Of a DNA stretch of 64,000 nucleotides, positions 7,022 through 9,472 are shown piece by piece (the stretch's first letter is position 1; each line of letters opens with the position of its first letter). Source of the DNA: an uncultured Spirochaetaceae bacterium (GTDB lineage Bacteria; Spirochaetota; Spirochaetia; Treponematales; Treponemataceae); the NCBI GenBank assembly GCA_902797305.1, contig CADBSK010000013.1:1-64000 (forward strand). The letters run 5' to 3'. A program made the translations under genes and the position numbers. A model generated the notes under the pieces. That model was not told the DNA's origin. It worked only from the letters and a program-made list of their open reading frames with translations, and did no database searches.

Positions 7022-7663
7022 CTAAAGGTTGTGTTTGCACAAATCCTTAATAAGGCAGTTTGAACAGTCGGGGTTCTTTGCTTTGCATACATATCTTCCG
7101 TGTAGAATAAGCCAGTGATGGGCATGAACCATATACTGTGAAGGAATGTTTTTACACAATTCTTGTTCTATCTGTTCAGGAGTTGAGCCATTAGCAAGAC
7201 CAATTCTTGGACTTATTCTAAGAAGGTGGGTGTCAACCGGCATTGTGGGCTGTCCAAAGACTACATTCAAAACAACATTGGCGGTTTTTCGACCGACTCC
7301 CGGTAAAGTCATTAAGTCTTTTCTATTATTTGGAACGATTCCATCAAAATCATCCAATAACTTTTTGCTTAAAGAAAGAATATTCTTGCTTTTGGTTGAA
7401 GTAAGACCGATTGGTCTTATTATTTGTGCGATTTGCTCCTGGGTTAAATCTGCCATTGCCTGAGGTGTGTCGGCAAGTTTAAAAAGAGGAGCTGTAACTT
7501 TGTTCACGCTTTTATCGGTGGTCTGAGCACTTAAAACAACTGCGACCAGCAGAGTAAAAGGAGAATAATAGTCCAGCTCCGGTTTAGGATCAGGATTTTG
7601 AGCCTTAAATCTTTCAAAAATTTGGATAATTTGTTCTGTAGATAAAAGCTCAAAATTAGTCAT
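7022..7663 (-). CDS. nth: Endonuclease III
   Basis: A DNA glycosylase/AP lyase that removes oxidised pyrimidines in base-excision repair. The helix-hairpin-helix LPGVGRKTANVV carries the catalytic lysine, followed by the catalytic aspartate in MPVDTHLLR. Four cysteines at the C-terminus (spacing C-x6-C-x2-C-x5-C) bind the 4Fe-4S cluster. The start chosen gives MTNFELL and 213 residues, normal for the family; a longer reading would run into metK. The metK stop and nth start overlap by one base (TAATG), so nth is translationally coupled to metK and likely shares its regulation. Confidence 0.95.
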   Translation of the reverse strand: MTNFELLSTEQIIQIFERFKAQNPDPKPELDYYSPFTLLVAVVLSAQTTDKSVNKVTAPLFKLADTPQAMADLTQEQIAQIIRPIGLTSTKSKNILSLSKKLLDDFDGIVPNNRKDLMTLPGVGRKTANVVLNVVFGQPTMPVDTHLLRISPRIGLANGSTPEQIEQELCKNIPSQYMVHAHHWLILHGRYVCKAKNPDCSNCLIKDLCKHNL

Positions 7664-8880
7664 TATTTGTTTGCTTGAATAAAAGCTTTTAATTCCTGAA
7701 TTTTGTTTGTTTCTTCCCAAGGGAAGCCTTCTCTACCAAAGTGTCCGTAACTAGCAGTTTTGCGGTAAATTGGCTGTTTAAGATTTAAGGTCTTTATGAT
7801 TCCTGCTGGTGTACAGTCAAAAATCTTTTTAACAGCTTCTTCGATTAGGGCGCGAGGAGCCTTTTCTGTTCCAAAAGTTTCGACGAGAATAGAAACAGGG
7901 AACGGAACACCGATTGCGTATGCAAGTTCAACTTCTGCGCGGTCTGCAAGCTTTGCTGCAACGATGTTTTTAGCGATATAACGAGCCATATATGCTGCTG
8001 AACGGTCAACTTTACTTGGATCTTTACCACTAAAGGCACCGCCACCGTGACGACCCATTCCACCGTATGTGTCTACGATAATCTTACGACCTGTAAGACC
8101 TGAGTCTCCGTCCGGTCCTCCAGTTACAAATCGTCCGGTTGGATTGATAAAGAACTTAGTTTTATCATCTAAGAGACCTGTTGGTTCAAGAACTGGTTTA
8201 ATAATCTGTTCAATGATTGTTTTTTCGATTTCTTCGTGTGTAACGCTTTCATCGTGCTGATGAGAAACTACGACTGTATCGATTCTTACAGGTTTGTATC
8301 CATCGTATTCTACTGTTACCTGGCTTTTTGCATCCGGTCTAAGCCATTTGATTGTACCGTTGTGACGCAATTCGTGGGCTTTTAATAGAATCTGATGAGA
8401 ATAATAAACAGGAGCAGGCATAAAAGAAGGGGTTTCGTTACATGCAAAACCGAACATCATTCCCTGGTCTCCGGCTCCCTGCTGACCTTCGTATTCTTCC
8501 AGACCTTTTCCAACAACTCCCTGATTGATGTCGGCGCTCTGAGCATGAAGTCTGTTCATAAAGAGACAGTTTGCTCCATCAAGTCCTACTTTTGGGTCAT
8601 TGTATCCGATATCTAAAGCTACGTTACGAGCAATTTTTTCTACCTGTCGATTAAATGACTGTATTTCTGAGTCTGTAAAAGGCTTTGAAAATCCGATTTC
8701 TCCTCCCACAAGCAAAAAGTCGGTAGAAGAAAAACTTTCGCAAGCTACGTGTGCATTTGGATCTAAAGAAAGACAATAATCAAGAACTGCGTCAGAAACT
8801 TGATCGCATAATTTGTCAGGGTGGCCTTCGCCAACAGATTCTGATGTGAATAAATAGTGATTAGAAGTGATAATTCCCAT
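7663..8880 (-). CDS. metK: S-adenosylmethionine synthetase
   Basis: Makes SAM from methionine and ATP. At 405 residues it has all family signatures: [22 protein letters not shown], the [12 protein letters not shown] loop, the substrate stretch [24 protein letters not shown] and [19 protein letters not shown]. The ATG at 8880 is supported by AAGGAG six bases upstream; longer in-frame readings pass through the 5' leader. That leader is about 80 nt from a sigma-70 promoter at 8968-8996 and folds like a SAM-II-class riboswitch (see the separate entry), so translation may be repressed by SAM. nth follows by TAATG overlap. Confidence 0.97.
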
Positions 8881-8886
8881 TTGGAA

Positions 8887-8950
8887 CTCCTTTTTAGCAA
8901 GATTTACCGGTTTTACGGCCTCCGTTCTGCAATTTGGATAACTCGACGGA
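8887..8950 (-). promoter_or_regulatory. Candidate SAM-II-like riboswitch in the metK leader
   Basis: Reading the minus strand, TCCGT pairs with ACGGA to form P1 (8950-8946 with 8925-8921). The enclosed loop reads GAGTTATCC...ATTGCAG, like the SAM-II loop with its conserved CC and UUGCAG. After P1 come a short GCCG/CGGT hairpin and GTAAATCTTGCTAAAAAGGAG-type sequence, carrying the conserved GCUAAA just before the Shine-Dalgarno. Two pseudoknot contacts are possible: loop GCAG with UUGC, and loop UCC with GGA of the ribosome site. The SAM-II consensus used is from memory. The extra small hairpin is not in the classic form. No covariance search was possible. Confidence 0.6.
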
Positions 8951-8967
8951 TATTCAATTGTATGTTC

Positions 8968-8996
8968 AATATAACGACTTGCAGGAAATTGTTCAA
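8968..8996 (-). promoter_or_regulatory. Sigma-70-type promoter of metK
   Basis: On the minus strand TTGAAC (8996-8991) and TATATT (8973-8968) are separated by 17 bases. A start about seven bases downstream would place the riboswitch-like P1 stem within roughly the first 15 nt of the transcript and give a leader of about 80 nt before the metK ATG. Confidence 0.65.
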
Positions 8997-9151
8997 CAGA
9001 AATATTTGATAGTGGCTGAATCAATTATAAATGGGTGTGTCAATCCTTCTATCAAAAAACTTAAAATAATAATAGAATTTTATAAACCTATGTACATTTA
9101 AAAAATATTGTAGTAAAATATTAAATCATAGAATTGGTTATGGAGGGTGAA

Positions 9152-9472
9152 ATGTCACTCAAAAAAACATTTTCAAAAGATAAGACAAAGTGTAATGTTA
9201 CTTTTACAGTGTCGGCAGAAGCAGCTCAGGGAGCTAAGTCTGTAAATATTGCTGGAGATTTTAACAGTTGGAGTAGCACAGATACTCCTCTTAAACAGGG
9301 AAAAGACGGTTCTTTCTCAGTAAAGCTAGAACTTGAAGCAAACAGAGAATATCAGTTCCGTTATTTATTGGATGGATACAAATGGGAGAACGACTGGAAA
9401 GCAGATAAATACATTCCAGCTCCTTATTCTAACGCAGACAATTCTGTTGTTGTAACAAAACCTTCTAAATAA
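9152..9472 (+). CDS. Stand-alone CBM48 (glycogen-binding) domain protein
   Basis: A 106-residue protein that is almost entirely one carbohydrate-binding module 48/isoamylase N-terminal-type fold. The motif KSVNIAGDFNSWS (about 34-46), then FSVKLEL and YQFRYLLDGYKWENDW, is the classic pattern seen in AMPK beta subunits and glycogen enzymes. There is no catalytic domain, signal peptide or membrane segment, so it probably acts in the cytoplasm, perhaps tethering something to glycogen. GGAGGG lies four bases before the chosen ATG; an upstream in-frame ATG at 9140 is less likely. It is a single-gene unit ending in a strong terminator. Confidence 0.88.
   Translation: MSLKKTFSKDKTKCNVTFTVSAEAAQGAKSVNIAGDFNSWSSTDTPLKQGKDGSFSVKLELEANREYQFRYLLDGYKWENDWKADKYIPAPYSNADNSVVVTKPSK

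Follow-up and report, generated by a model that had tools for sequence, protein, structure and literature searches.

According to published descriptions, SAM-II riboswitches occur most often in the Alpha-, Beta-, and Gammaproteobacteria (PMC2704228), and SAM-V has been reported in marine alphaproteobacteria and Bacteroidetes (PMC6061858). Here we analyze an element in the metK leader of an uncultured spirochaete. Its superfamily has mostly been described in proteobacteria and marine bacteria, and the element would widen the known range to much of the spirochaetes. With a probability of about 0.88, we propose that positions 8951 to 8887 of the minus strand form a riboswitch that senses SAM and belongs to the SAM-II/SAM-V superfamily; it would control translation of metK and, via an overlapping start, probably that of nth. 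Positions refer to the window, the whole 64,000-nucleotide (nt) stretch of DNA that was analyzed. The parts of the literature on SAM-II, SAM-V, SAM-alpha, or metK in Treponema and other spirochaetes that were available to us contain no description of the element, and an earlier mention is possible.

Direct reading of the minus strand ahead of metK (S-adenosylmethionine synthetase according to Pfam, 7663 to 8880, minus strand) reveals a 5-bp stem P1, then its loop, a small hairpin, and a 3' strand. P1 consists of UCCGU (DNA TCCGT, 8946 to 8950) and ACGGA (8921 to 8925), both strands being supported by covariation. The loop reads GAGUUA-UCC-AAAUUGCAG and holds CC at 8937 to 8936 and TTGCAG at 8932 to 8927. 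Using an alignment of relatives' leaders, we assigned three parts of it: the third strand GAGUUA (8939 to 8944; compare PMC6061858), the P2a 5' strand UCC (8936 to 8938), which is complementary to GGA of the Shine-Dalgarno sequence and belongs to a CC/GG pairing present in practically all leaders, and the P2 5' strand UUGCA (8928 to 8932). After the small hairpin P3 (GCCG-UAAAAC-CGGU, 8906 to 8919, arms 8919 to 8916 and 8909 to 8906), AAAUCUUGCUAAAAAGGAG is located immediately 5' of metK. In this part, AAATCTTGCTAAA at 8905 to 8893 is followed by GGAG at 8890 to 8887 and by the metK ATG at 8880 to 8878. It comprises the A-rich linker AAAUC (8901 to 8905), aligned as the counterpart of the SAM-V A-minor strand (PMC6061858), and the P2 3' strand UGC with the pocket residues UAAA (8893 to 8899; U8896, A8895, A8894, and A8893). 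The GGA part of the Shine-Dalgarno sequence GGAG (assigned by direct reading and the leader alignment) is the predicted partner in P2a. The sequence-only reading of this DNA had reported P1 with CC and TTGCAG in its loop and GCTAAA before GGAG, and all of these are present where it placed them. A single copy of the core GAKTTATCCAAATTGCAGNNCGG is present in the 64-kb window, where 0.01 would be expected by chance; the pattern was taken from the leaders themselves, and this figure describes rarity and is no independent test.

The metK stop codon TAA overlaps the ATG of nth in TAATG (7665 to 7661). Among 46 related loci, at least 24 have the nth gene (endonuclease III, 7022 to 7663 on the minus strand of the window; assigned by Pfam and the loci of relatives) close to metK, mostly directly 3' of it. 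Divergent from metK, a small protein with a CBM48-type (glycogen-binding) domain is encoded at 9149 to 9472 on the plus strand. The leader is non-coding, its length taking all values modulo 3 and in-frame stops being present in 39 of 55 leaders. Indels and in-frame stops in relatives rule out that metK extends further upstream in frame (ORF from 9024).

A promoter match, TTGAAC-17-TATATT, is located at 8968 to 8996 (minus strand), with a predicted start approximately 10 nt 5' of P1. It is present as had been described, but taken alone it is unremarkable: the window contains 7 promoter-like sites versus 6.0 ± 2.8 expected. Among relatives, promoter matches just 5' of P1 exceeded those in shuffled sequences (mean 8.7 versus 7.2 of 12). 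No terminator-like site was detected in the window's leader, which fits translational control. The minimum-energy fold of the single window leader was no better than that of shuffled sequences (z +0.89, obtained with a folding program that cannot represent a pseudoknot). Thus, the evidence for the element is comparative.

Rfam did not report the element. The whole window gave no SAM-II, SAM-V, or SAM/SAH match at gathering thresholds, and the leader alone gave no match to RF00521 (SAM-II), RF01826 (SAM-V), or RF01727 (SAM/SAH) up to an E value of 10; the RF00521 gathering cut-off of 36 bits was accordingly not reached by the window element. A search with RF01826 over 98 genomes at E ≤ 0.5 found nothing at a metK leader and only chance-level matches elsewhere. 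The sequence-only reading had suggested a scan with the covariance models RF00521 and RF01826 and had named the lack of a hit as a result against its claim. Since the silence of Rfam is literally that result, we examined the leaders of relatives. The most likely reason for this silence is that the Rfam models do not tolerate the P3 insert.

Among named organisms, Treponema sp. JC4 has the MetK closest to the window's (85% identity), and the next-nearest belong to treponemes from horse, goat, rumen, or gut metagenomes. The metK leaders of ten close relatives (L011 to L020) have most or all of CYGATTTATCCAAATTGCAG and AAATCTTGCTAAANAGGAG in common, while the P1 sequence varies and the hairpin is variable and missing in L018. 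No match to the element was found in the metK leaders of the more distant treponemes L021 to L026. A covariance model built from nine Treponema metK leaders (R1) gave matches with E ≤ 1.1e-7 in 36 of the 59 genus genomes; a few of these 36 supplied training sequences or are near-identical to them. In all 36, metK is directly downstream according to tblastn. The window's own genome scored 74.6 bits (E 6e-15) with R1 and E 3e-15 with a broader model (R2), the window being among the training sequences of both; the extent matched by both models is 8887 to 8951. Weaker matches in other families of the order precede metK (for example, L002 to L004, L006, L007, L009, L128, L129, L132, and L138 to L140) or ahcY (L001, L127, and L136), with L196 and L197 adding to this set. 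In L136, metK follows ahcY, and this is the only one of the three fetched stretches that shows metK. R2, from which the chance-like R1 matches L135 and L137 were left out, matched 64 of 393 phylum genomes at E ≤ 0.02, the weakest of the 64 being doubtful. About 20 of the 50 genus genomes in this phylum sample had no match or only a weak one; the element is therefore not universal. A second, convincing-looking P3-bearing copy was observed in one Treponema genome (L131, 1676 to 1759), where it precedes a 21-codon ORF followed by an unknown 287-aa gene.

Next to conservation, we analyzed pairing. When the P1 arms were located by sequence anchors, 60 of 62 leaders showed pairing over 5 bp, with a mean length of 4.95 versus 3.94 ± 0.10 when arms were swapped between leaders. 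In an alignment of 61 leaders, which was fitted to the P1/P3 structure, pairing was formed in 94.4% of cells, and 144 cells were changed on both sides versus 39.7 ± 6.8 in shuffles. The covariation score was 0.288 versus 0.101 when shuffled, and sliding by one base ruined the signal. Because of the fitting, the P1 arm swap and the folding of P3 give cleaner evidence. Of the 45 insert-bearing leaders, 44 fold into a clear P3 hairpin (mean z −3.6). P3 had been regarded as a structural variant; it is real and absent from SAM-II, but it has a precedent, as the crystal structure of SAM-V shows a P3 at the same place (PMC6061858).

P2 pairs were formed in 93.5% of cells in the 61 leaders and are nearly invariant, with one covarying pair (A-U 33, G-C 5, G-U 4, other 13). 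Since the P2 core hardly varies, the pseudoknot is supported mainly by this pair and by homology. The proposed alignment of relatives' leaders thus showed P1 pairing to be kept and covarying, together with one pair of P2. Shuffling P2a arms between leaders had no power to reveal covariation, because the Shine-Dalgarno sequence hardly varies. In two more distant spirochaetes (L150 and L152, both at 1501 to 1578), SAM-II-like elements were observed in which P2a is changed on both strands (UCAC/GUGA and CUUAC/GUAAG, respectively). A putative tandem element in L101, consisting of a partial GCTAAG-AAGGGG repeat 5' of the leader, was judged too weak.

The link to SAM-II is provided by leaders that lack the hairpin. 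A P3-less form of approximately 45 nt is present in two Treponema genomes (L018, 2939 to 2984; L130, 1152 to 1197), both with only about 4 to 5 nt between P1 and GCUAAA, and the hairpin-less form precedes metK or ahcY-metK in other spirochaete families. With RF00521, the L018 leader reached 14.7 bits, below the cut-off. The P3-less metK/ahcY leaders of the other families reached 22 to 30 bits and are among the best sub-threshold RF00521 places; R1 independently reached the same places. Four other spirochaete genomes exceeded the cut-off with 45.2, 38.5, 37.7, and 36.1 bits, three of them by no more than 2.5 bits. R1, whose training set was Treponema only, recovered three of the four with E < 0.01. 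In two of the four (G394 and G415), RF00521 gave a second match, below the cut-off, in front of metK. Thus, the window element is connected to SAM-II through intermediates. That the P3-less sister leaders match RF00521 below its cut-off suggests that P3 was gained within the spirochaetes.

The compact leader overlapping the Shine-Dalgarno sequence could also be thought of as an autoregulatory protein-binding site or an RNA thermosensor lacking a metabolite aptamer. This is very improbable in view of the letter-for-letter match to an aptamer core with a known ligand, the above-threshold RF00521 relatives in the phylum, and the association with SAM-cycle genes.

For the riboswitch reading, we compared the ligand pocket using the SAM-V numbering (PMC6061858). 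All 61 leaders have GCUAAA and the third-strand UU. Counterparts of SAM-V U9, U10, U47, A48, A49, and A50 are likewise present in 61/61, and those of U19, U20, G21, and A18 in 58/61, 60/61, 58/61, and 55/61, respectively. The window has every one of these counterparts (U8941 and U8940 correspond to U9 and U10) and also all SAM-II pocket residues, namely the third-strand UU, the P2 UU, and U-AAA of the 3' strand. Its sole departure is G8942 at the position of U8. At this third-strand position 10, U is present in 51 of 61 leaders, in line with the SAM-II consensus GAUUU, and G in 10 (window, L017, L099, L104, L003, L007, L009, L128, L134, and L139). In SAM-V, U8 hydrogen-bonds U47, the reader of adenine (PMC6061858). 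A changed ligand or weakened specificity in the G10 copies including the window, for example for SAH or another adenosyl compound, would agree with the loss of the U that holds the adenine-reading U and with the recurrence of G in at least two families. We regard it as quite unlikely, since the sulfonium-sensing U pair and the equivalents of U47 and A50 are intact, metK is downstream of nearly all G10 and U10 forms, and O4 of a U can accept a hydrogen bond from G as well. G recurs both within the genus and in a second family, which indicates that it is probably tolerated.

The comparative evidence therefore supports the original proposal that this spirochaete metK leader contains a SAM-II-like riboswitch, whose predicted function is SAM binding. 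This evidence comprises RNA-level conservation, covariation of P1 and P3, one covarying P2 pair, the metK/ahcY association, and a pocket matching except at 8942. From these comparisons we infer SAM as the ligand, the OFF direction, the translational mechanism, and the coupling to nth. In the proposed switch, the RNA would start about 10 nt before P1, P1 would form, and the loop strand UUGCA would pair with UGCUAA to give the pseudoknot P2. SAM would stack between G8930 and A8895, with its adenine on U8896, its sulfonium against the U8931:A8895.U8941 triple, and its aminoacyl end on A8893. Binding would lock the third strand into the P2 groove, stabilizing the P2 triplex and the short P2a, in which UCC (8938 to 8936) would pair with GGA (8890 to 8888) and hide the Shine-Dalgarno sequence. 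Plentiful SAM would then turn off metK translation, so that the product limits its own synthesis. P3 (8919 to 8906) would serve as a variable spacer hairpin, as in SAM-V. Because nth starts inside the metK stop codon and is often near metK in relatives, it could be co-regulated by translational coupling.

SAM-II-like elements were also observed before other genes. Three over-threshold RF00521 elements (L146, 1501 to 1577; L147, 1501 to 1579; L148, 1501 to 1576) precede a small conserved protein with no Pfam family (129 aa in L146 and L148), and two of these genomes also carry an element before metK (L161 and L162). The strongest RF00521 match of the phylum sample (L145, 118 to 195; 45.2 bits), near a contig end, precedes a 145-aa protein of no Pfam family. 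Three SAM-II-like elements (L182, 197 to 248; L183, 223 to 273; L186, 243 to 289) lie directly before similar-looking proteins starting with MY.IQ..V..., of which that of L182 gave no Pfam, PHROGs, PADLOC, or PDB match. In two different families, elements precede similar MoxR-type AAA ATPase genes (L185, 2593 to 2680; L134, 1117 to 1171), with another ORF in between in L134, and one element precedes a WYL-like HTH regulator gene (L184, 2660 to 2716).

A tentative extension, which we consider possible without favoring it, is that the Treponema metK element represents a separate subclass joining SAM-II and SAM-V, with a SAM-II core and an independently acquired SAM-V-like P3. In this view, spirochaetes would have recruited the superfamily beyond methionine metabolism, placing it ahead of MoxR-type ATPase genes and of unknown HTH-like and WYL-like genes, and affinity or the preferred ligand may have shifted in the G10 copies. 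The element is a likely answer to how SAM synthesis is controlled in gut treponemes, and its extra-hairpin version in gut- or rumen-type Treponema escapes standard RNA databases. The P3-bearing and P3-less forms in orthologous metK leaders are relevant to the question of whether SAM-II and SAM-V form a single class, and the natural forms of about 45 nt and the natural pocket variant G10 are available for binding tests.

Compared with known systems, the element resembles the SAM/SAH riboswitch RF01727 in its similar small size, its position before metK, as in Rhodobacterales (PMC4239095), and its H-type pseudoknot topology (PMC7367207). It differs in sequence and structure, giving no match at E ≤ 10, and its conserved letters match RF00521 in relatives; membership in RF01727 can practically be discounted.

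With SAM-V, the element shares a P3 stem-loop that follows P1 and precedes the P2 3' strand, an A-rich linker docking P1, a P2a of 2 to 3 bp that includes the Shine-Dalgarno sequence, and apparent translational control (PMC6061858). By these traits it could be a bona fide SAM-V, sharing an ancestor with marine SAM-V and not descended from SAM-II. This is unlikely: RF01826 has no match in the metK leaders of the 98 genomes, P2 is GCA/UGC as in SAM-II and not the GUGC/GCAC next to UAAA of SAM-V, the gain of P3 suggested by the P3-less sister leaders points the other way, and a grouping of P3-bearing leaders inside SAM-II with P3-less spirochaete forms was partly seen. UUGCAG and GCUAAA had been ascribed to SAM-V as well, which is wrong, as its Rfam consensus reads UUGUGC...GCACUAAA; the letters of the element are therefore those of SAM-II.

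With SAM-II (RF00521), the element shares P1 plus an H-type P2, the CC/GG P2a, and a leader core, GAUUUA...CC...UUGCAG...GCUAAA-N-AGG, that follows the order of the Rfam consensus GAUUUG..CC..CUUGCA..CGCUAAAgAGG. Unlike SAM-II, it has the extra P3 hairpin, a short 3-bp P2a containing the Shine-Dalgarno sequence (usually longer in SAM-II), metK instead of metX/metY/metA as its gene, and a score below the Rfam cut-off. Like the superfamily, it precedes methionine/SAM-metabolism genes (metK, and metK or ahcY-metK in other families). Because it has some of the defining features of SAM-II and of SAM-V and lacks others, we classify the putative riboswitch as a variant within the SAM-II/SAM-V superfamily.
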